Source: Protonemura montana
Taxonomy: Eukaryota; Arthropoda; Insecta; Plecoptera; Nemouridae
Assembly (NCBI GenBank): GCA_947568835.1
Contig: OX387605.1
Location: 25,334,784-25,398,783, forward strand
Reading direction: 5' to 3'
DNA length: 64,000 nucleotides
The stretch's first letter is position 1, and every line of letters starts with the position of its first letter. Below are positions 113 to 64,000 of the stretch, piece by piece. The position numbers were made by a program, and so were the translations under genes. A model generated the notes under the pieces. That model saw only the letters and a list, made by a program, of their open reading frames with translations. It searched no databases and was not told the origin of the DNA.

Positions 113-3100
113 GTATATCGCAACGCAAAACTTGGCTGGCGATTATGCAGTCACCAGGCGACCGCCACTCGTACCACCTGTCTTAGTTCGAGCCCCGGCT
201 GCTGTCGACGACCCTGCCCTTGGCGATTCGGACACGCGCAGGGTGCATTGACTTACGGGCACCGCCTTCCCGGTGGCGTTCCCGCGCGAATCCACGGTCA
301 CCGAACCCCGAGGTTCCCGCCAAAGTAATCGCGGGCATTTTTTAATGCGGGACATTTCGGTGCTTTCTTTAAGAAGAAAACGTGCGACTTAAAAAGTCAA
401 CTTTCCCAACCCTCATCCAAGGTCATTTAGTAAGGAGGGGTTGGGAAGTCCTTAGAAAGAGCAAGCACGATCATTTCAATTCCCACTGTCGGCGATCACC
501 GTCTGTTGCTCGTCTGTTGTCTTTGTGTGAGACAGCCACACCCTGAGCGTGAAATCAGAAGTCTAAATTACCTCGATCCCCGGATAACTCGCCAGTCAGC
601 ACCCTAGACATGATTAGCCGAGTGGTAGGTAGGCCTAGCGATTCGACCGGGCCGCTTGGGCGTTTGCCAGACTACCCTTCAAAACATACGGGCGCGAGTC
701 GGCGAAGCGTAACAGCTCGTGCCCGTACCCCAACCCCTGATCGCGCCGTAAACGTCTTTACCTCCTTTCGGCGAAAACAATCTTGCGATCAACCTGTCGC
801 GAGGGGTAGGGGGGGAGGGCGCCGCGAAGCGCAGTTCCTTCACTGCTTCCGGCGGAAGGGCGCGCTGCCGGGATGTAAACACATTGCTCTGCCCCCCACA
901 TAGGCTCCGCTAGAGAGTCTTGGAGGGCGGGAGTGGGCGACTTGTTGTGAGGCCGCCATGCTTATCTCGCCTGTATGCAAAATGTTAATTCGCATATCTT
1001 TTTAAATGACGGACCTGTGAGCTGTCTTGTGACATTAACCAGATACCGGAGATACGCTGCAGTGGGAGGGTGATTCTTTTAGTGTCAATGGGATAACGCA
1101 AGAGATCAGGAAAAGCCAGAGTCAGATCAGCTTACTTAGTTTGCAAATTACTTCATGTGCATGTAACGAATTCGATGAAACCTTTCCGAACTTCACTACC
1201 TTTCCGAACTTCACTCTGATGCTACATCCGAATAATTTTGCTGACCAGTTCTATATGCTTCATCACGACCTGACGAGTGTCCGACCCCACGTCATGATGT
1301 CGGCGTGCTGGACAGACCCTCGCGGGACCAGCCTGCCACTGTCGGGCGCCCATGCACCCTCTTCAAGAGTAGCGTAGTGGCGAGCGCTCTGTGAGCGGAG
1401 AGAGCAGGCGAGAGCGCCACGAAACAAAGACAAAGATATCAACAAAACGCGAGCGCCCAGCCGTGCCCTTGTCCGGTCTGCCACTCTTAGCGTGCACCTT
1501 GGCGGGCTTTCTTACTCAGCGTTTTATCGATGGCTTTACGCCGGGATGCTAAAATTGTTCGCACAATATTCACTCAAATTTTGCGAAATAGCCCTTTTTT
1601 GGAGCCAAATTTGCAACGAAGATTACCGCCAAGTATGGGAGATGAGTTCTGTTAGATCTGTTGGTGTCGATTTCTGTTTTGATCTTATTTTGAAGAGTGG
1701 AGACATGAAAGGAAAGTGATATTCGTTATTTTTCCCGATGTCTTTCCCTTGCCTCTACATAACTTAGCTAACAGTTTAACTGCTGATTGCCAATTACCTG
1801 TACAGAGTAAATAGCAAAGAGCGACTCAATACGCTAAGCAAGGACCCTTCGAGCCCTTTATCGCGGCCTATGTGTCCATGTTCCTAATAACTCTGATTAC
1901 CAAGGACCTGAATGCGGGAACCCAGCCCTACAACGTCCCTCTCTGTAACCAGCGTGGAGCGCTAGGGAGCTGCCTGCGCTACCAAAAGAAGTCTCTAATT
2001 TGGACCCATTGATCGCGCGGCGGCGACTTTTTGTCCCCTCGACGCCCCACCCCTGGGGACGGACCCCCGTCGCGACGCGTCCGATGCATTCATGCAGCCG
2101 CGTTGCACTGTTATCCGCTGCATCGCGGTGCAGTAAAGGGTTGAAATCACAACGTTGAGTGCGTTATAGGCGTGCTAGGGAATGGGAAGTCGAAATTTGG
2201 CGATTTGCATTTCGAGGTTTGGTCATTTTTATTTTTTGTTTGGTCATTGCAAACAAAGGGTCAGACTTGCAAAACTTTCCCATGGTTTTCGCAGAAACTT
2301 CTTTAGGGAAATTCCTTTTCTTCTGGCACCAATGTGATGACCGTGGGACTTACTGACCGTAATCCTTTCGACCGGCCATCGGATCTTTATTTGTCTTTAG
2401 TTAAACACAGTTGTGTAAATTTTAAAGTAATGCAGTGCATGCTAAAAATTCCCGGGAAGGAATATGATGAAATCCCGTCGTCGCCGAAATGGTTTATAAC
2501 ATCCAGGACAAAGGTTTTGGGGACAGCAACGACGTCACCGATAGGCGATGACCCAAATTTTCTGAAACTGCATTTGCTAACCCGCGAGTTTTTCTGCACT
2601 AGCACAAAGGTCACCAATCTGCGATAACCGCGCCCGTGGTGTATTTAAACGTTTCTTTTTTCGCCATGAATGAATGGCGCCCTTTAATAATATCAACGTT
2701 GATAGCGTCGTCATCGCACGCTCGACTGACTCCGGCCGGCGAACCGTTGGTCGGTCGCGGGGTCGAACCAACTGACGCACTATACATGTGCGGGCAATTA
2801 AAACCTGTCACCGAAGTCGCTCGGTCACCCCCGCCCCTTTCAAGTCAGGGTGTTTCGATCATGCTACGAGTGGGCTTCGAACTATCCCCACAAATATCCC
2901 CCAAAACGTGCGGAATTTCCATGTCAGATTGTCGATTGCAACAACGCAGCCGCAAAGAACGCTTCAAAAAGTTATATTCAACTCAATACCACTATCTCAT
3001 TGATATTTTATTGGCACCCAAAGTATTATTTCCTCACAAACCCACAACAACAGCGCTAGTCATTGATCTGTAAGCAAGTATATCTGCACCGGGAGGGAGG

Positions 3101-44200: not shown

Positions 44201-47200
44201 GGCTGTAGCTGCTCCGCACGCTGCAGTAGTCAAAGCTGTTTCGCCCGCAAAGCCAGCGCCAACACAATTGGCTGGTTCGAATCAAACACCGCAGGTTGGT
44301 AGCTATTTATAGCTTTAGTAGTTTGATACAGACTTTGCGGATGCAATTTGAGTTATATAGTAAGATGAGTGTAGCGATATTTTGTGATGTAAATATAAGA
44401 TGCTGATCCACTGTTTAGATTAAAGCAAAACAACCACAATTCACAAAATTAAGTTGGCAATTTGTGAATAAAAATAGAAAGATAACATACAAGCTCAAAA
44501 ACTTTTCAACGACTAAATTTTGATGTATTTCCCATCTTTGCAAAGTTTGGTAAAACATTTCAAATACTTCTGGCAGTAAAACTTCAAAAAGTTTAGACAA
44601 AATCTGAAAACGATAGTAAATTTTGAATAGCTACAAAACTATTTGACTAATTTTTATGAAAAAACACAGGGGGTCTAAGTTTAAAATACTGAAATGTGCT
44701 CTCAAAATTTGGTTCAAATCGGAGTAGGCGTTTGACCGCTTGAACGCAAACAAAAATGTATAAAAAGACATATTTTTTTTGGGTTAAACGAAATTGAAGA
44801 TTTTGCTAAGCTCATCAATTTGTTCCGATATCAAAAGTGTTTGTCTGTCTTCCTTGTCTTGCCTTCTTTTGTTAGATTTTGAAATGATCACTGACTTTTA
44901 GCATTAGCTGTATCACTTGTGGTTAATAGCTAATTCTAAGATTTGAACCTGGAAGCTGAACGATTATCTGCAGTTTCGAAGGATTTTCATGCTCTGAGCT
45001 GACGTGGACCTTTTTGTTGCCAGACACGTTCCCACGGCATCGACAACTACGAGGATCTCCCCGCTGGGAAGTACACAGCAGTAAGTCGCTTACATCTCAG
45101 AACGGATCTTAACACAGCTTTGTCGTATCTTTATCTTGTCCGCTGCTATGAGCCCATTTCAGTGGCACTTCGAAAAATTTCACTTGACCTTTTGGTACGG
45201 GTTTGTACTTTTAAAAACTAATGCTCCAGAGTGCAGTCCATTAACTGTCAGTCAAATTGGTACTCTCTATCTCGTCTCCAATCATTTTGAGGCTAGTTAA
45301 TAACGGCAAGTTGTCAAAAAAACCTCTTATCTACTTATAATAAAGCGCGTGTGTGTGAGTTTACTTTCTGCAAAAACTCCAGTCTTTATGCCATGCGTTT
45401 CCACAGTTCTTGAGATTTTCATTCTGCATTTTTTGGAACGTGTTGGAATCGACGTTTTGCATTGCTTATGACATTCTATGGTGCTGCTAACCTTCTTTGT
45501 GTAGGGATCAAAGGAACCTGCTGACCATAATCCAACAGACTTAGTAATTAGGAAACATAACTTGTAGAGTCCGCATGACCAATGTCCGACCTAGGTGACT
45601 GTCGCCGTGCCCGACGGCTCGACGGGATGGGTGGCGGTGGATTCTCGCAACGATCATTGCTACGAGATGGTGATGGCCATCACGGAGCGTAATGATCTTG
45701 CGGCAATTGCAGTCCCGCGCGAAGGCGACTACGTTGCTGCAGTCTTCTGTGGCGAGTGGTGAGTCGTGGATGGACCGCTGTAGTCTACACAAAACCTGGC
45801 CAGAGCTATGACAAGTCTTGGAGAGGCTTCTGAGCGGATGGTCAAGGCATTGATGCTTGGATCACAGTTACAGTTGTGTTGAAGAGCAAATGGAGGAACT
45901 ATTAGAAAGAAATACAATGGAAAATTGAAGAATTTTGGGTTTGTTACCTGCCGATTGGCTCAGTGTATTTTGTAGAGAAATTTACTCTTCCAGCATCGTG
46001 CATCGAGTGGATCAGCGACTGATACACTGCTTTAGATAGGTTTCGGTGGTGAAGGCACGCTTTTAGCTGCTTAACATTTTTCTGCGCAGGAAACGTAACA
46101 GGCAATTAATGGGTTTGGAGGATATTGTAGAAAAGCCAGCGTTTTTTATGCCTATGGTTATTTAAGTTGTTGATAAGCTTTCTTTCTTTTCTGCCAGTAT
46201 TTCAACATTTATAAAACCAATGCAGTTTGATTAGGATGAAATCTTATTTAAATTGCAAACGCTTGCAATGCCCGGGGTATTTTATTATTAACAACACTAA
46301 AACCGTCTAAAAAATTGATGCCCAAACGGGGACTCGAACCCCGATCTCCACCTATCGCAGGTGTTGCTCTGAACCATTGAGCTATTTGGACACTGGCTTT
46401 TTGAGACTATTTTTGAGACTATTTGTCCAAATAGCTTAATGGTTCAGAGCTACACCCGCGATAGGTGGAGATCGGGGTTCGAGTCCGCGTTTGGGCATCA
46501 ATTTTTGAGACGGTTATAGTGTTGTTAATAATAAAATGCAGTTTGATGTTTTTGCTAAAATATGACTTAAAAAATCAAAATACTAGATAGATAATCTGGA
46601 ATCTCATTGCATTTGACATGCCTAACTTTTGAGCTTGAGCTTACCTGCGAGTCATTGAACAGGTTCCGTGCTCGTGTGATGAAGACGGCTCCCCTCACAG
46701 TGTTCTACGTTGATTACGGAAACACGGAACAACTGACGCTGGACCAAATCCGGTCCCTTCCTGCCGAGTACTTACAAGAGCCTGCCCAGGTTGGTGGTAC
46801 CCTGTTTGGTCCTCAGGGTCTCAGTTATCCCAGCCATCTGCTGCTCAGATGGTCATTATGATTTAAAATTTTGTAGCGTCTTGAAAACTGTTAACCAGCT
46901 AGTTTTCTGGGAGAAATAGATGCAGGACAGTTTCGGTCTTCTAAGACCAATGTAACAACACGTGGATACCTAAATCAGTACTGTCTATTAGAACTTAGAC
47001 TTATTAACACTATTATTAACACTATTAACTTATTAACACTATTAGAAACATGTGAAGTGTAGGATGTTTCAAGGCTAGGTGCGTCGAATGGATTAAAACT
47101 ACCCGTGAATACTTATGATTTGCCATAATTCAATGGTACTTGGGTTAATTTTAACTTACATGGGAATTGTTTGTAATGTAACGTTTATGTTTGTAATGTA

Positions 47201-54302: not shown

Positions 54303-57300
54303 TTAGGAGTTGCGCATGTCGATGTCAGGGTCGAGATGGCCAAAAAGCACCTCCTTAAGCCACTGGGTGTGGGCTGAGACAGCTGTGAATGCCGTACGAT
54401 GTTCGGATTGGCACGCCTGGGAAGATCCACGATGCAATGGCGCGCTGCTCACGATGGCGCGAAGGAAATACCGCAAGCCGCTCACCCGCTGCGCCGGAAA
54501 CACGAGACCACCACCAGAGTCGCCCACACACACGCTCGTCGAGCGACCCTGAAACGGTGGAATTCATCGCTGGGTTGCAGTCAATGTAAGAAGCAGGTAT
54601 CAGAACTTACGCTGTAACAGAACTTCAAGCACAGGTTTCTATGTACTGCCTAGATGTAATACCGTTGAGTGTTAAAATTACTCTTTTTTTTTTTAATTCA
54701 AACAATTTTTGGTTTCTGTTGCACAGTAGTGATTTTCTGCAGGTCAAAATCATGGGATACTTGCTCCAAATATATAGATAAACCCATTCCAGAAAAACAT
54801 TCTGTAAAAAAAAACACTCTTATGGGCTTAAAAAAGTTAAATTATATGGTGAAATAGTGACCCTCAACAATAACTCTGTCGGTTTTCCAGCTAGCGACTC
54901 AAAACGAAAATTTGTATAATCAAATCAAAGAGTGCTAACTTTTAAACATATATATATGCAGGTTGTTTGGTTTTTCTAGTGTATCTACCAGGGAGCTGGA
55001 ACCAGCAAGCGAAGGATGGACGGAGAGCTAGACCAGAAAAATGTGCAATGGAACCGGGATACGAATCCGGGATCTCTCAACTGCTGATCGTGTACTAGCT
55101 ACCAACTGAGCTATCCAGGTACACATATTGGAATAAGAGATCCCCTCAAGAGGGAAGAGGCCGATGTGACTCCTATGAACGAGTACTAAGTCAACTTTAG
55201 ATAAAATCAAAAATAAAAACGCTGCAAACCCCGTCTATATTTCCAGATAAAAACGGAATTCGAGGAAAAATGACGGACAATTCTGTTCATGTGGCTGTTG
55301 AATTAGCATCCTATTCTAGAGTTGCTAAGAACTCCTCATACAAGTTGCCCTGGTCTCTTCTCCCTAAAGGGAATCCTTTAAACCACTCTGCAAAATCTGG
55401 AGTAAGTGTGCCCGGATAACTCAGTTGGTAGAGCACCCAACTGGTAATTGGGAGGTCCTGGGTTTGTATCTCAGTTCAGTTGCAAATTTTTCCAGTCTAG
55501 CTTCCTTTCCAAATATATAAATATATATTAGCACTAGGACACATTCAAAATAAAATTAAAAATGTTGGCAACGAGTACCACACCTGGAACCCGGCGCATA
55601 TCTTGTCTCGAGTGATGTAGGGCTGGAAATGTTCAGGCACCGAGTTGTGACATTCTCGGAATGGCACGAAAGGCAGGTCCACGTAGCGAAGGGTGTCACT
55701 CGGAGCATCTTTTTCGTTTATGCCCCAGCCCGGCACCTGCACCGAAAGCACGACCGGGGTTCAAGACACCTTAGCAAAGCACACCGATGTGTATAGCAAT
55801 GTATATAAATATAACATTTTAGACTTGTCTCCATGCTCTTACATAATATATCATAATATGTACTATGAGTATTTTCTTTGGAAAAATGGAAATAAAGGAA
55901 CAATACAATACAATAGCAGATGGCAGCTGCTGAACATGACCAAGCTTGTCTGAAGCCAATTATTTGCGTAGGTTCTGTATGGGTAGAGGGACAAAGCCCA
56001 GTCCCACACATTTGGCACACCACAAATGGCATTTTAAAGCTGAGATTTATAATAAGTACATAGAGTACATTTTTTCCAAATGCAACCAGGGATCAAATTC
56101 TTAACATTGCTTTAGATGTATGGATATAAGGCCCAGTATAAACAAATTGCTCAAACCCCTGAAGAAGAAACTAGTATATGTTACGAAACTTCAGGAAATT
56201 TAGTAGTCCTTTACTTAGCATTCAAAACCCAGTTCAAATAGTTTTTCTTAAAAATAGTGCTAAGGATAAATCAAGTAGACATGAGTCTAAAAACCATCAT
56301 GGTCAAGAGCAATTCACCGTTCCGTTGCTTCCGCTTGTGAAATGTTGATACTCAAACTCGGTCTCCCAATCGACACAGACGACGCCAACGACCAGGGAAA
56401 GTTGAGCTGGGACTGCCAACTGGAGCACCGCGATATCGTTTTCGAGCTTGCGAACGTTCCCGGCATATCGCTGGGGTATGTGCAGCTTGGCCACGCGGAA
56501 ACGTTGCTCGTCATCGTCTGTAATCTCCCACGTGCGGGAGTGTTTGCCGGCAGCCACGCGGTACTGAGATGCCGGCCATGCGCGCTTCTTCGATTCGCTC
56601 CAAACGCAATGCGCGGCTGTCCCGCAGAGAAAGTGAATATTCAGGGTAATTGCAAAAATAGTTATTATGCATTTTAGAAGCATGGAAAAAATGATCAAAT
56701 AATTATGATAGGACAGTTAAAAAGTAGGAGAGAAATGGGTAAAGTTAATAAATACAGACAAAAGATAAAATTTAATGAATTTATAAGATTTGGATAAAAT
56801 TAAAATGTGTGGAGTGAACTTGGTGAAAGATTAATAGAGGCAAGATAGTAGGTAGAAATGGGCATGAGTTTAAGTTATCTATGAAAGAGAGGAATCAGAT
56901 GTAGAGGAAACTTGAAAAAGGGGACATTTCAGAGCAAGAAATGCCTTCCAGAACACAAGAAAGACACTAGACTAGGGGCATTGACAGTCACGGAGGAGAA
57001 TGTTGCACTGGGGCAGAGTCAAATCACCAGGTGCTCTAGGTGGGCATTTACGAATGTCAAATCAAGAAACTTGAACTTGTAATGCTTTACTATCAGCTGT
57101 TTTTTAAAACTCCAACCTATAAATGAGAACGTGTGAACAACTCTGTTTACCGGTGATGACGAAAGTGGGCGTGACGAGCGTTCCTCCGCAAATGGCCTGG
57201 AACTTCGTTTTGTCCTGTCGAAAAAGCGCCGCGTGCCAAGGAAATTCGGAGCTTGCCGCCTGCTTGCCACCAACCACGGTAGGCCGGGCGCCAACTTCAT

Positions 57301-60300
57301 TCCGGCGGCCACAATCTTGAGGTAAATGTGGCAGAAAGTTAGGGGCAAGGTTCAAGCTCTGTTCAAACATACATCACTAGACATCAATATTCAAACAATA
57401 TTTTAGTAAAGCTCTACTTTTCTCCAAAAAAATTAAGTAATTTTGGGTTAATGCAATTTCAAATATTTTCCTATACATATCTGTATATGTATTTAGATAT
57501 ATTTATGTAATATTGGGGATATATGGGGATGTTGATAGTAAAAAAAAATATATTTACTGATATATGAATATACTGATGTCTCCTGTTGCAGAAAGTATTG
57601 AAGGTACCAGCGAAACTCCTGGGATTAAATTCAAATCACCTGGTACACAGTCGAACAAGTCGCGTGACCATTGCCCATTGGCAGAGCATTGGGCTACCAG
57701 CTGCCCCGGGTGCGGTTCGGGCAGTTGAAAACCGGGCCGGCAGGTGAACCGGGCGGTTGTGCTGGGCGGGACCGGCTTGGTGCAGTCCACCACCGCCCCT
57801 GTCAGCATGCACACCACGTCCAGAGATGCAGAAGTCAACGCCATGCAGGCAGCGCTAGCGCCAAGTAGCGGCACAGGTAGCGGTTTGGCAGCGAAAGACG
57901 CTGAGAAAAGATAACTTTGTTCAAAGGAGGCAAGTATTCCTAGTCCATGGCATGGTTTTTAAATATTTTTCATGATGTCCATTCCAACCAAATTAATGAT
58001 TACATTTTTTTGAAATTACAAAAAATTAAAAAAACTTGTCATTGGTTTTCTTGGACTACAATTTGAGTGTAGTCTTTTGGCTAGGATGTTTCAAGTCTTG
58101 TAAGCAGATTGGGATACTTAAAAAATGTTGCTGCCGAGGTTGTATGCTTGTGCCTGCCATATGAAATTCATAGACAAGCTGTGAAATTTTAAAAGAATGA
58201 ACAATTTGACACTAAGAAAAATTTACTGCACGGTACCTTTATTTGAACCAGATTGCCATAAGGCCATACTCGATTCCCTACAAGGACTTCGTAGACACAT
58301 AGCACTCACTTGCGGTGAAGTGGTGTACATGTGAAGGCCTGGATTCCCCGAACCCGTTGGCCACCACCAAGTAGGCCGAATAATTTCCCGGAGTAGTCAC
58401 CTCTAAATCGTACTTCACGACCACCGTGCTCTGGTTCACGCGTTCCATTGCCCCCAAAGTTTTTACCTCCTGCCATAGACCCTGTGGACAAATTAGATGT
58501 TCCTCGGTTATTATTTAACCTAATTATACGTTTTAGGTTAAAAATGTATATACTTTTCACTTTTCTTGTCTTTTCCAGCCCTTAAAATTTGCATCCCCTA
58601 TAAGATTTTTCCGCTTCGATCACAGATCAGTAAACTCGTACCTGGTCCTAGGTGATCTCTTGTGCTTGGTAGAATCAAACCATGATTGGTAGAGAACAAA
58701 GATTCCATCTTATTTGAGAAGCAAGTACACGAGTAATTGTATCAGAAAGTTGTCGAGCATTGTTTAAAACAACTCACGGCTTAACTGTACAATTCCTGGC
58801 AATTCCTGACCCCACCTTTCTGTGACGAATCTTGAGAGTGGATGTGGGAAGAGGTGTGTAGCTTTCTACGTTCCAGGCCAGCGATGGAAACGATGACAGC
58901 GCCAACATGGGTTGCCCAGGGACGCCTGGAGGGAATAATTAAAGCCATCGTGACCAGCAGTAGGCGTGATACAAATTACAACCACGGGATTGCAAAAGGA
59001 ACAAGACTTCTGGTCTACTTTAAATTGTCAAATTCAGCAACAGTTCTATTCCAGAAGTGAAATTATTCATTTTTGTTGAATGCTGCCCAAAGAAGGACAT
59101 GGTATAGTAGCATACAACCAGTATTTCATACACAATAGCAGAAATAATCCAACAGAAGTGAATTGCCAGAAATGCCCAAACGACATGGAACAAAAGACTA
59201 AAAAAAATGATTTTGTTTTAATTGGTAGTGTAGAAATTGTTAACCATGATTGGTATTTGGAAGAATATGTTGAGCATACAGTTTTTACTCTTACAGTGAA
59301 CTCTCAAATGAAATACTAAACAATAAACATCCTTAAAAATGGCAACAGATATTTTCTTGCAGCTTACAATTATCATGGACTTGTTTCTAAACTACAGAGT
59401 TAAATTATTTTGTGAACGGAAGGTATCACCGCCTTGCGTAGGTACGTTGCTGTGGCCATTACACAACCTCTACACCGACCTGTGATTTGCACGACCTGCG
59501 ACGTGGTTCCCACCGAATTCTTGGCTGTACAAGTGAACTCGGTCAAATCTTCGATGGTGACGTCCTCAAGCCTCAGCCAATAACGTGTTCCGTCCCGCCC
59601 CGAGATGACCAATGGGGAGAGTGCGACAGGAACGTCGTTGCGGCTCCATCGGACGACCGCTTCTGGCCGCGCTTTAACGATGCAGGCGAGTTCTGCCAGG
59701 TGGCCCTCTGCAGAGCGTATGACACTTGCCTCGGCCACCACCGAGGGATTGGCTGGTCATGGGATCAGAGTCTTTAAAAGTATCAATGTTTCACGTAATT
59801 TTCACTGTGATCGGATGAAGATGGTCGAGGCTTTTGGAGATACAATTCTGGTTCCAATGCATTTTGATTACAAAGAACAACACCATAAGCTTTCTCCCTA
59901 ATTCTGCTCCTCTCCCCAACTCGCTCAGCAAGCTGACACAAGAATCTCACAATAATATCTAGCTGCAGCTGAGGAGGATTTTGTTTGACTCGTTCTGATT
60001 GCAAGAAAAAATATTCTTCCAAGCCATTAAATTGAGTGTCTGTGGGATTTTATATTTCCAACCGTGATAGAGCCAAGATGCCAAAACGTGTTTAGATCTC
60101 TCCCACAACGCTAACTTGACAGATGCACTTCAAGGAAACAGTCAATTGAAGATAGTTGACTAAATTTTGAAACCTCTGTATAGCCAATTGTGCAAACACA
60201 GAAATTGCTGCGTCAAATAAATATATAAAATAAAGAAGTATTTTAACAACGTAATGTTGGTTACGCTTACGTCAACAATCGACTCACCTATGACTCGCAA

Positions 60301-63300
60301 TGGCACCTTAGCCTCGACAGACTCGGAAAGAGCAGCATGCTCGATACGACACGAAAGTTCCTTCCCCTCGTCGGCTGCCGTCAAAATCCGAGTGAACGTC
60401 TGCTTCACTGGCCTCGGTTCCCACGGCCGAGTCGTTGCCAAGTCACTCGGCAGAGTGTCGTTCAGTTCATCCTGCCGAACAACCTGGAGGCACAAAGCGT
60501 GGCTAGCAATTTCAGGCAAAACTTGGCAGGGAATAACTAGGCCCCAGTTATACAATTTTCTAAACTCCTAGTTGAAGTGGTAACCATGGTGACTTCCAAT
60601 CATGTGCAGTGGGATTCAAATGTTGGTGTGAGCTAAAAGCTCAATGCAAATCATGTAAATCTGTGCCTTAGAAATCCTGGTAATAGCAACCGTAACATTT
60701 CAGCTCCACACATGACTAGCTGTCCACAATTTACCAAACAAAGTAAAATCACACATGAGATCTAGACCAGTTATGCAGCCAATTATATTAATTATTATGT
60801 ATCTACGTTATCAGGTATGATAGCGAAATCCCAAGAAATTACCCAGTTAGTCTAACATCAGCAAGACAGCACTCAATATATTTTGCAACCGGCTTCTTCA
60901 TTTGCCGTACAATAATCTTCTTTCTACTCTATTTCACAGTTTTTAAATTTTAAAGCACCTTATTTGGTATGATATACATTAACATCAACCTTTGAGAAAT
61001 ATATATAAATCGAAGAGTAAATGACACTCCGTTGTACCTAAGGAAAGTACACATTCACTCAACATTACAAAACATACCTCTTCTCCAAGCAGCCACGTCA
61101 TTCCCACAGGGGGTGAGGCCAGAGGAGCCTGGCACGAGGCCTCAAGCACATCCCCAGCGTACATAGGTAGCGAGTTGTGCATGTCCAAGACAGGTTTACC
61201 CTTAGGTCCATCTGCATTGTAACAAACAGTGAACTGAGAGGCTAGGTGATGCCAGACGCATTATATTAATTGCCGAGTTTTTGGTTTTTCTAGTGATTCC
61301 ACAAGGGAGCTGAAACCAGTAAGCTAAGGATGGAAACAGAGCTACACTGTCTTCTAGGTCAAATTTTCATTTTGGTAATTTAGAAACTGTTTACAAGTTT
61401 CTATTAGGAACTAACCATCACAAGAAAAGTGTTTGATCTTTGAGGAATGTTTTAGTACACATATATACTCCTAGACTCTAAATAATTTTCAGAAAAGTAG
61501 ATATAAATACATCTGTTGTAAAGCCTAAATCTGCTAGAAATTTACCCACAGCAAGTATTGAATCAAAAACCAATGCACAACACATTGTAGCAAAAATTTA
61601 ATCCAGAAAAGAAAGCTAAAACATGCAGAGCTGCAATAGCATAATATGAACTACGAACTAGCTTTCCTGAAAGTTGCTTAACACTTACCCTGGACAATCA
61701 CCACTGTCATCAACCACACGGCGGTGACTTCCTTCTCAGCGTACCAGTCCCAGACACCGGCGTCTCTGGCTTGCACGTCCGGCAGCTTGAAACCGCACCC
61801 TCCTTGTTCCTGGGCGCCGCCTTGTAGCAGGTACCGCCGCCCGGACGGTACGTCTTGACCTGGGGTCAGGTCAAGAGGTCCCTCTGCCGGAGTGCGAATG
61901 CTGCATCCTACCCACGCGGTCGGCGACTGCAGGAGGACAGCTTCCGTGGATTCCCGTCTCGTGACAACCAGCGGGGCGTTGGGTTTATCCCAAGGCAACA
62001 CGTCACGACCTGGCAACCAGGGGCGTGGTTAAAGCTCGGTGACTCCAGTGCGTAACATTAAAATTCTTAATTTAACGCTACAATTAATTGTTTATGTTTT
62101 TGCTTCTCACAGGCAAAAGAAAAAATAGAGGATTGGCTTGTTACCAGTGATTGGTGCAGCAATAAACGATTACATTTTGTAGTTAACATTTCAAAATTGA
62201 CAGTCACCAAAAAAAAAAATACAACAAAACAATATGTGCTGAAGGCATTTTTGTTTGAGTCGTGTTTCTCCGTAGGATGGTATGGTATCCATAAGGATAA
62301 GGATGATAGTATAAACTTTTGCTTGCATATTTGCTTTGGTTACGAACCCGATGACGTCAGAAGCCCGTATCCTTGACTCCAGCCCCCTTGTTCCTTCCTT
62401 CCGAAGCACTCTATGAGGTACACCCCTGACCACACCTTGTCGAGCTGGACTCCGCAATGCCCCCCTGAGAGACCACTGCCGGAGTAACTGGCAGTCGTGG
62501 CAGTCTCCCCTTTACTAGTCTTGAGCGCCACCGTAGGTGATTGGCGGCCGCGACGGAAGTTGAGCACGCCGTCGACGTGCCGGTAATAGTGCTCCGATAC
62601 GCGAACTTGGCAGTCGACAATAGGGTGGGCGAACTTGCATTGGATGCTGCTGGAGGTAAATTGCTTGATCTGCTTGAACTTTGGCACAATCTCTGGCGGA
62701 GAAGAGGCACCTGCAATTTGTAAAGTTGATGTTTTGTGGCATAGTAAATGGAAAGGAATAGATCTTACTAAAGTAGGCATATTTTGTCTAATTATTTCTG
62801 CATTCCCATGCACGAGCTAGTCTTTGCAAGGTATTTAATAAAAACATCAAATATACAACCATTTAATTCCAAGTTGTGTTGCATTGAGTTTGAGAGAAAC
62901 TCAAACTGTTTGAAAAATCTTAGATGAGGTATTGGAGTCAGGTTGTTTACAAAATTAAGGAACAATTTCATTATGACCTCAGAGAATATAAAACAGAATC
63001 ATATAACTAATGGCACTACAACATCTGATCAGATGCAAGCAGTCACTGATTAGATGTGAATTCACAACTAACTGATATTGTTTTGCCATTTATAGGCATG
63101 GTCAGGTTTCCTTTGTCCCAGCAACTCACGAATGTTTCTCAAGACGAAGTCAGAGCTGCTAGGTGCAGAGAGTGCGGCATGCTCAATGCGACACCGGAGT
63201 ATTTTCCCCTCGTCGGCTGCCGTCAAAATCCGAGTGAACGTCTGCTTCACTGGCCTCGGTTCCCACAGCCGAGTCGTTGCCAAGTCATACGGCAGAGTGT

Positions 63301-63325
63301 CGTTCAGTTCATCCTGCCGAACAAC
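54303..63325 (-). CDS. Modular serine protease with Ig/FN3 extension (5' end outside window)
   Basis: Thirteen exons in transcript order: 63325-63130, 62710-62348, 62009-61689, 61211-61078, 60483-60288, 59752-59480, 58925-58816, 58481-58310, 57900-57640, 57315-57151, 56616-56318, 55736-55584 and 54548-54303. All joins are in phase, giving 962 residues before TAA. Numbered from the first visible residue: half an Ig (1-65), two divergent Ig-like domains (66-186, 187-293), Ig (294-403), I-set Ig (404-494), FN3 (495-588), CCP/Wonton-like module (589-675) and S1 protease (676-962). The catalytic triad is complete: H733 (TAAHC), D791 (NDIAVL) and S892 (GDSGG). The last modules resemble ModSP/HP14, the secreted starters of arthropod immune cascades, which normally carry LDLa repeats instead of Ig/FN3. 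A merge of two neighbouring genes cannot be excluded without transcripts. Confidence 0.82.
54663..54672 (+). repeat. Solo copy of the CGTTGAGTGT terminal motif
   Basis: An exact 10-bp match in the last intron of the protease gene, followed by TAAAATTACTC. It shares the start TAA with the 35022 copy. No partner end is visible. Confidence 0.35.
54966..55205 (-). repeat. tRNA-derived SINE, family 2
   Basis: On the minus strand, TAGCTCAGTTGG is a perfect pol III box A and GGATTCGTATCC is a box-B-like element about 45 bp later. A body then reads TCCGTCCATCCTTCGCTTGC and ends in CTAGAAAAACC. The body recurs without the head near 61276-61345. It lies in the last intron of the protease gene. Confidence 0.6.
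55408..55490 (+). repeat. tRNA-like sequence (Thr-type anticodon loop), degenerate
   Basis: GCCCGGATAACTCAGTTGG with a D-arm and a CCAA/TTGG anticodon stem around CTGGTAA would read as anticodon GGT. The acceptor and T-arms do not pair (GGGTTTGTATCTC), so it is a pseudo-tRNA or SINE head. It is related to the copy just upstream in the opposite direction. Confidence 0.45.
56150..56305 (+). repeat. Interspersed repeat with hammerhead-like core, copy D
   Basis: CCTGAAGAAG...GTTACGAAACTTCAGG followed by AAATTTAGTAGTCCTTTACT and AAGTAGACATGAGTCTAAA. CCTGAAG and CTTCAGG can pair as a closing stem. It ends a few bases before a protease exon boundary (56318), so the repeat abuts the splice donor region of that exon. 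Confidence 0.5.
57640..57900 (-). other. CCP/Wonton-like module exon
   Basis: Residues 589-675. Cysteines and spacing in VVDCTKPVPPSTTARFTC, GFQLPEPHPGQLVAQC and NGQWSRDLFDC fit the sushi-like module that precedes the protease in ModSP/HP14-type enzymes. The next exon starts DCG at the protease hinge. There is no start codon with a signal peptide in this exon, which favours joining to the FN3 part upstream. Confidence 0.7.
58310..58925 (-). other. Fibronectin type III domain (two exons)
   Basis: Exons 58925-58816 and 58481-58310 give residues 495-588. The sequence starts GVPGQPMLALS, has LAWNVESYTPL and LKIRHRK, and ends YSAYLVVANGFGESRPS. Trp and Tyr positions match FN3 domains that follow Ig domains in neural adhesion proteins. 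It ends with one leftover base that matches the phase of the CCP exon. Confidence 0.8.
59480..59752 (-). other. I-set Ig domain exon
   Basis: Residues 404-494. The core is EGHLAELACIVKARPEAVVRW ... LRLEDVTIEDLTEFTCTAKNSVG, with the Ig cysteines, Trp and the tyrosine-corner-like motif (here Phe replaces Tyr). Confidence 0.88.
60288..61211 (-). other. Ig domain encoded by two exons
   Basis: Exon 61211-61078 carries the first half (AGDVLEASCQAPLASPP...MTWLLGEE), and exon 60483-60288 the second half (VVRQDELNDTLP...LSCRIEHAALS). The intron between them, phase 0, lies just after the conserved Trp strand. The second-half exon is nearly the same as 63325-63130. Confidence 0.85.
61276..61345 (-). 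repeat. Headless copy of SINE family 2
   Basis: GGTTTTTCTAGTG, then AGGGAGCTGAAACCAG and AAGGATGGA, matches the body of the 54966-55205 element, without its tRNA-like head. It lies in an intron of the protease gene. Confidence 0.5.
61689..62710 (-). other. Two divergent Ig-like domains, one exon each
   Basis: Exons 62710-62348 (residues 66-186) and 62009-61689 (187-293) share a layout: a Cys after about 30 residues, then later GHCGVQLDKV / GGCGFKLPDV, then YLIEC / VWDWY. This resembles the divergent Ig domains of arthropod adhesion proteins such as Fasciclin 3. In the second, the last Ig cysteine is replaced (WDWY), so the standard disulfide is missing. The donor of the first (CGG then GTTCGT) is weak. 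Confidence 0.7.
63130..63325 (-). other. Second half of an Ig domain, first visible exon
   Basis: It encodes VVRQDELNDTLPYDLATTR through CRIEHAALSAPSSS. Its phase-0 acceptor implies another exon with the first half of the domain further upstream, which I could not find in 63326-64000. The gene therefore continues beyond the window. Confidence 0.85.
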
Positions 63326-64000
63326 CTGGAGGCACAAAGCGTGGCTAGCAATTTTAGGCAAACTTTGGACTTGGGAATTATTACAATCTTGGTAACAGCA
63401 ATTCAGTAGCTGTTTCAACTCCACGTTTATTACCAGCTCGTGCACCTGTTGTTGTACCTATTATGTCACATACTTGACCAGGGGTCAGTTTCCCTACCAG
63501 TTTCTGCTTATACGTTAAAACTACTATTTACCTCTTTAAACCTTGGTATGTTTTTACAATGTGTCTGATTTTTTCTCTTTGAGTTTGGGTTCCATTTAGC
63601 TTACATACCATACCATACCATGCCATATCATACCATACCATACCATTCCATACCATACCATACCATACCATACCATACCATATCATACCATACCATACCA
63701 TTCCATACCATACCATACCATATCATACCATAGCATACCATACCATACCATACCATATCATACCATACCACATCAAACCAAACAATACCACTGAGGTCTA
63801 CGCAATGAGTCTACGCCATACTCGTACGTCACATTCAGGACGCCCATTGAGGGGTAAATATTCGCCAGAGAGTGGCATTTTTACCTATTTTACTAATAAT
63901 CGCAGTTAATTTTCACTGATTGATTTCATCACGCAGGGCAGACCTGAACACAATAAGTATTCCTCTAAAAAGTTCTCCCCTTTCTGCGGGAAACACCTAG
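63326..64000. other. Intron or upstream part of the protease gene
   Basis: No convincing exon is seen. A pentanucleotide microsatellite fills 63603-63780. A minus-strand open stretch near 63790-63870 (including NVTYEYGVDSL) lacks a good donor and is not called. Confidence 0.4.
63603..63780. repeat. (ATACC)n microsatellite
   Basis: About 178 bp of CATAC/CATAT pentamers with scattered substitutions (TGCC, TTCC, TATC variants), in an intron of the protease gene or upstream of it. Confidence 0.9.

Follow-up and report, generated by a model that had tools for sequence, protein, structure and literature searches.

A predicted serine protease with an Ig array and a ModSP-like C-terminal half, and its multi-copy relatives, in the stonefly Protonemura montana

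Introduction

A gene on the minus strand of a 64,000-nucleotide stretch of the Protonemura montana genome (C3:25334784-25398783 in an assembly of 258 Mb and 34 contigs; the whole stretch is called the window here) probably encodes a secreted multidomain S1 zymogen of the initiator ('modular') type, whose recognition arm would be an array of immunoglobulin (Ig) domains, and relatives of this gene appear to carry a diversifying sensor in one Ig domain, Ig3. Invertebrate immunity is usually pictured as fixed pattern receptors that feed a protease cascade, and the insect initiator protease reads separate recognition proteins through its LDLa repeats. No description of an Ig-type CCP/Wonton protease was found in the titles and abstracts of the searched literature, with most subscription journals outside its coverage. 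The domain anatomy given here was read from the sequence, and what the protein would bind, how it would be activated and what it would cut are modelled on HP14 and ModSP.

Results

Exon structure and domain order

Thirteen minus-strand exons (63325..54303; Table 1), cut and joined by script, agreed to the base with those listed in the earlier note on this DNA. All 13 have an AG acceptor and all 12 donors are GT, the phases are compatible at every junction, and the joined frame of 962 amino acids (aa) has the terminal TAA as its sole stop. The donor of exon 62710..62348 is weak (CGG|gttcgt); in the copy of the exon that lies beyond the window, the donor reads gtaagg. Because the joined protein gives Pfam matches to Trypsin (2.4e-35), I-set (1.4e-12), Sushi (1.1e-5) and C2-set_2 (1.3e-5), this string of domains is not a product of chance.

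Exon 63325..63130, which had been taken as the first of the gene, rather completes a C2-type Ig domain that begins upstream of the window. In the ten kb directly upstream of the window (C3:25398784-25408783, designated L003), four further exons extend the gene to a 17-exon, 1251-aa model. This region contains second copies of the Ig2 and Ig3 exons, with 109/120 and 97/106 residues identical to the window copies, and its positions 398..265 hold the first half of the duplicate Ig4, whose second half is the exon just mentioned. A candidate first exon (L003 3073..3025) encodes MAMNLSVIMCLLVAVC, a putative signal peptide as read by eye, and ends T|gtaagc in phase 1, which fits the next exon. The modelled order is signal, two successive Ig2-Ig3-Ig4 triplets, Ig5, an FN3-like domain, a Wonton-like CCP module and S1, and the phase-1 boundaries between domains would suit exon shuffling. 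Ig2 and Ig3 are called Ig domains from their cysteine/DxGxW pattern and mutual similarity. As to the FN3 assignment of the earlier note, the sequence looks consensus-like by eye and the Ig5-FN3 region aligns weakly to NCAM2 and contactin-2, but FN3 found no Pfam match and a best E of 0.42 in a PDB search with the domain alone, and we regard its identity as plausible and unconfirmed. Likewise, the term 'adhesion-type' clearly suits the I-set domain, whereas of the remaining Ig domains two are V-like and diverged and one is of the C2 type.

The tandem triplets (window 60288-63325 and L003 265-1728) differ at 17/360 bases in Ig2 and 21/318 in Ig3, with nonsynonymous (dN) and synonymous (dS) divergences of 0.045 and 0.061 for Ig2. 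Their introns have no detectable similarity except for 43 bases just before Ig4b; the two Ig4b exons show a conversion-like break, in that their starts and the adjoining intron end are almost the same and their last dozen or so codons are dissimilar. That the duplication is very recent or an artefact was rejected, since introns that align over 43 bases only accompany near-identical exons; homogenisation limited to exons fits this combination better, and the triplets may be old duplicates subject to repeated exon-sized gene conversion. The intron preceding the duplicate Ig4b exon also holds a 5-base tandem repeat (CATAC) in 37 copies (window 63604-63790).

The protease half

The S1 domain retains the complete catalytic triad in AAHC (His57), DIAV (Asp102) and GDSGGG (Ser195). 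Aligned to factor IXa, it has Ser in place of Asp at position 189, and positions 215/216/226 read as Ser, Ala and Thr, so that the enzyme would not be trypsin-like. Its putative activation site, ARPT|VVGG, has a non-basic P1 residue. The eight S1 cysteines would fit the pairs 1-122, 42-58, 168-182 and 191-220 (chymotrypsin numbering), and these pairs would tether the regulatory chain after activation. The CCP module, already proposed as Wonton-like and matched by Pfam Sushi, has the six cysteines of the Wonton domain defined for HP14 and ModSP, a correspondence judged by cysteine count only; Wonton is a Sushi-like domain with six cysteines in PMC10036332.

GDSGGG and non-basic activation sites also occur in published HP14-type proteases. 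AmSP49 has GDSGGG, the activation site SKTL|IVNG and a pocket listed as E(SSS) (PMC1761132), and HaSP41 has the non-basic activation site VDVL (PMC7215089). The claim of a ModSP-like protease is upheld for the C-terminal half by the six-cysteine module, GDSGGG, Ser189 and the non-basic activation site, with Ig modules ahead of them instead of LDLa; Drosophila ModSP is ordered S-4/5LDLA-CCP-Wonton-PD (PMC10036332). Pfam found no LDLa in the 962-aa model (E<=1) or in the 355 aa from upstream (E<=10), and no clip model occurred among the Pfam matches of these two parts. A second, four-cysteine Sushi (CCP) before the Wonton-like module was not found, Pfam giving one Sushi-like stretch.

Relatives elsewhere in the genome

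A whole-genome search with the Ig2-Ig3-Ig4 protein gave at least 107 matches, the gene's own exons included. Outside the gene, 21 loci have a strong Ig4 match (L010-L034; contigs C3, C4, C5, C8 and C10-C15); Ig2 and Ig3 both lie within 4.5 kb of Ig4 in 18 of them, with order and strand agreeing, and Ig2 is present in 19. The stretches taken extend about 1.5 kb past Ig4, and a CCP module follows Ig4 in 16/21; within this distance it was not seen in L018, L020, L023, L024 and L031. Those paralogue Ig3, Ig4 and CCP exon ends that could be read are in phase 1, like those of the window gene. Among the 15 loci in which CCP was aligned, 8 have a clear CCP acceptor (LC|LDT, phase 1) and the other 7 only less convincing in-phase AGs. 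In two paralogues, L022 and L033, the first S1 exon is seen after CCP and starts DCGxRxGxSSSLSVGG, the S1 activation region; it runs off the stretch end in L022 and has a stop in L033. L033 (C12:13184924-13188145) has the further peculiarity that Ig2 runs directly into the later part of Ig4.

Neither Ig5 nor a separate FN3 gave a match at E<=1e-3 in the 21 paralogue stretches, so that Ig5-FN3 seems to have been inserted in the window gene only; one alignment in L022 spans the end of FN3 into CCP. Ig4 is a single exon in the aligned paralogues, whereas a phase-0 intron divides it in the window gene. The window gene is the long member of the family, having two copies of the triplet and the additional Ig5-FN3 insert.

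The paralogues bear on whether the Ig and protease parts belong together. Conceivably they come from two adjacent genes, one for an Ig/FN3 adhesion protein that ends before 58310 and one for a CCP-S1 protease that begins near 57900: the FN3 frame meets a stop within the 409-base intron, the CCP frame is closed upstream, the paralogue stretches lack the Ig5 and FN3 matches, and the joining is known from genomic letters rather than transcripts. We consider this very improbable, because the junction is in phase 1 with good splice sites (CAA|gtgagt and ttttctcag|CG), no transmembrane or signal-peptide exon was noticed by eye among the open frames of at least 40 aa around it, and CCP follows Ig4 on the same strand in most paralogous loci. 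For the joining of Ig and CCP parts assumed in the earlier note, the paralogues with CCP after Ig4 and the phase 1 of their readable exon ends give indirect support.

Of the 19 paralogues that are on long contigs, seven are no more than 700 kb away from a contig end, against 7% expected (binomial 2e-4); the limit was chosen after the positions were seen, and contig ends are taken as chromosome ends. Two further loci are on small contigs. A single TAA inside ten Ig4 matches was considered as a pseudogene mark and rejected: the stop of L014 precedes the acceptor (match from 1501, open frame from 1516), and the Ig4 core is without stops in 14/14 close loci. More distant clusters of Ig2/Ig4-like exons, at 28-38% identity, occur at C1:25278233-25287239, C1:28922322 and C1:29641953.

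Variability of Ig3

Divergence was compared among 14 close loci (L010, L012-L019, L021, L024-L026 and L029), of which 13 had a full Ig3, 14 a usable Ig4 and 11 a usable CCP; L011, L020, L022, L023, L030, L031 and L033, being more distant or damaged, were excluded. The dN/dS ratio (omega) was 2.7 for Ig3 versus 0.44 for Ig4 and 0.56 for CCP. The intron adjoining Ig3 differs by 2.5%, the Ig3 exon diverges about 4-5 times as much as this flanking intron, and the Ig3 excess was present in 78/78 pairs among 13 loci. When Ig3 was split, omega was 2.45 in variable patches and 1.06 in the rest; the patches were picked after the variation had been seen, which makes the split circular, and the whole-domain test is not.

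The pattern is sharpest in L013 (C10:104312-107650), L014 (C5:20849725-20853063) and L015 (C8:120573-123911), which are 98.4-99.1% identical over 3.3 kb and have 20-25 of their 23-34 pairwise substitutions inside the 288-bp Ig3 core. Such closeness raises the alternative that Ig3 variability is mainly allelic, with the C8 and C10 contigs being haplotigs of chromosome ends under balancing selection and no diversification across the family. L013 and L015 are on contigs of 108 kb and 890 kb, L014 lies 98 kb from the C5 end, and the three could be separate loci or haplotigs. However, the excess appears in all 78 pairs, among them the 55 that are left when L013 and L015 are set aside, on C3, C4, C5, C11, C13, C14 and C15, and alleles would still owe an explanation for 20/23 substitutions in one exon. 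An allelic origin of most of the variability seems unlikely to us on these grounds.

Table 1. Exons of the Ig-array protease gene within the window, in order of transcription
Feature	Position	Strand	Remarks
Ig4b' exon, second half of duplicate C2-type Ig	63130..63325	-	Phase 0 start, phase 1 end; 52/65 residues equal to exon 60483..60288
Ig2 exon, diverged V-like Ig, two putative disulfides	62348..62710	-	32-39% identity with those paralogue Ig2 exons of which most was read; no Pfam Ig match
Ig3 exon, V-like Ig	61689..62009	-	No Pfam match; paralogue counterpart hypervariable
Ig4a exon, first half of C2-type Ig	61078..61211	-	Pfam C2-set_2 1.3e-5 across Ig4a+b
Ig4b exon, second half of C2-type Ig	60288..60483	-	Pfam C2-set_2 across Ig4a+b; Ig4 a single exon in aligned paralogues
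Ig5 exon, I-set Ig	59480..59752	-	Pfam I-set 1.4e-12
FN3-like exon, first half	58816..58925	-	Joined frame; Pfam does not confirm FN3
FN3-like exon, second half	58310..58481	-	Weak Ig5-FN3 alignment to NCAM2/contactin-2
CCP/Sushi-like exon, six Cys (Wonton-like), and short linker	57640..57900	-	Pfam Sushi 3.4e-7, exon alone
S1 part a: putative activation site RPT|VVGG, Cys42	57151..57315	-	Homologous exon start after CCP in paralogues L022 and L033
S1 part b: His57 (AAHC), Asp102 (DIAV), Cys122	56318..56616	-	Joined frame, Pfam, alignment
S1 part c: Cys168, Cys182	55584..55736	-	Joined frame, alignment
S1 part d: Ser195 (GDSGGG), Ser189, stop TAA	54303..54548	-	Joined frame, Pfam, alignment

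Other features of the window

Two tRNA-Ser(CGA) genes in inverted orientation, with 31 bases between them, lie at 46317-46499. The G+C content of the window is 0.43-0.54 over the first 26 kb and 0.36-0.43 past 34 kb.

Discussion

Our data suggest a model whereby an initiator-type protease carries its own recognition arm. The Ig array would bind a target, either a microbial surface or an altered self surface, and zymogens clustered on this target would activate themselves or their neighbours by a cut at RPT|VVGG, in analogy to the proposal for HP14 and MSP. The Cys1-Cys122 pair would hold the Ig arm on the active enzyme, and the tethered enzyme could then cut a downstream cascade protease locally. 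In the multi-copy relatives, Ig3 would diversify under selection, providing many specificities on a conserved effector. If true, this arrangement would link diversified recognition to a protease cascade in one molecule, with a logic comparable to that of antibody plus C1, and near-identical copies that differ almost solely in one exon would offer a testable system.

Several observations weigh against this model. Pfam confirms the Ig-like nature claimed in the earlier note for Ig5 and Ig4, but at E<=1 none of its Ig models matches the exons of Ig2 (62710..62348) and Ig3 (62009..61689), and folding the Ig3 exon by itself with AlphaFold, without an alignment, gave a pLDDT of 38 and no usable structure. 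The S1 reading in paralogues reaches only the start of the domain, and some copies look decayed, with stops inside the match in L030 and L031 and in the first S1 exon of L033. The tandem Ig3 exons of the window gene itself (dN 0.050, dS 0.127) give no sign of diversifying selection. Among L013, L014 and L015, the nonsynonymous share of 22/25, 22/24 and 17/20 is mildly above the neutral 75%, and local mutation or conversion therefore explains more than selection in these three closest copies. Copies on small contigs may be alleles. In Ig3, dS too is higher than in the intron, so selection must be accompanied by conversion or an increased mutation rate; moreover, the codon tests presuppose a single tree and copies that do not convert one another, a condition that the pattern in the three copies suggests is violated. 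A role in a cascade of the Toll or melanisation type is an assumption made by analogy.

A bolder proposal, which we put forward tentatively as possible rather than probable, is that the genome has a recognition system resembling antibodies and joined to its own effector. This would be an Ig-Wonton-protease family, concentrated near contig ends, where short-tract conversion or targeted mutation together with selection diversifies two patches of one V-like Ig exon, in part possibly somatically, and the rest of the gene stays near-identical between recent copies. The two patches may be placed at the BC/C' and FG loops, in positions like those of complementarity-determining regions.

The function might instead lie outside immunity: the protease, secreted or in the matrix, could serve development or neural wiring, with Ig domains that recognise other Ig proteins in the manner of Beat or Fas3. 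Adhesion proteins characteristically contain C2-set Ig, I-set Ig and FN3-like domains, and the cysteine spacing of Ig2 and Ig3 with the C2-type Ig4 presumably resembles Drosophila Fasciclin III and Beat. We give this reading little weight, as amplification towards contig ends with one exon at an omega above 2 is unusual for adhesion genes, and the S1 part has the traits of an initiator protease. Unlike Fasciclin III and Beat, the gene is fused to a Wonton-S1 part, and no transmembrane segment was noticed.

Preferring the initiator-type zymogen, we find its nearest parallels among immune proteins. FREPs of snails, in which Ig is combined with fibrinogen, are likewise secreted Ig proteins that are multigene and diversified, and VCBPs of amphioxus, with V-type Ig and a chitin-binding domain, similarly have hypervariable V-like Ig domains in a secreted protein. 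In contrast to both, the effector end of the window gene is a protease, in place of the fibrinogen lectin domain of the former and the chitin-binding domain of the latter; Pfam matched neither a fibrinogen-related nor a chitin-binding domain in the 962-aa or 355-aa part. The HP14/ModSP/MSP group is closest in its protease end. The window gene differs from this group in its seven Ig domains and one FN3-like domain, in having multi-copy relatives, and in that LDLa and the second four-cysteine Sushi were not found in the parts searched; by its domain order it would fall outside the membership rules of ModSP. What it appears to share with the group is a ModSP-like C-terminal half, in which a six-cysteine Wonton-like module immediately precedes an S1 domain with GDSGGG, a pocket of the Ser189 type and a non-basic activation site.

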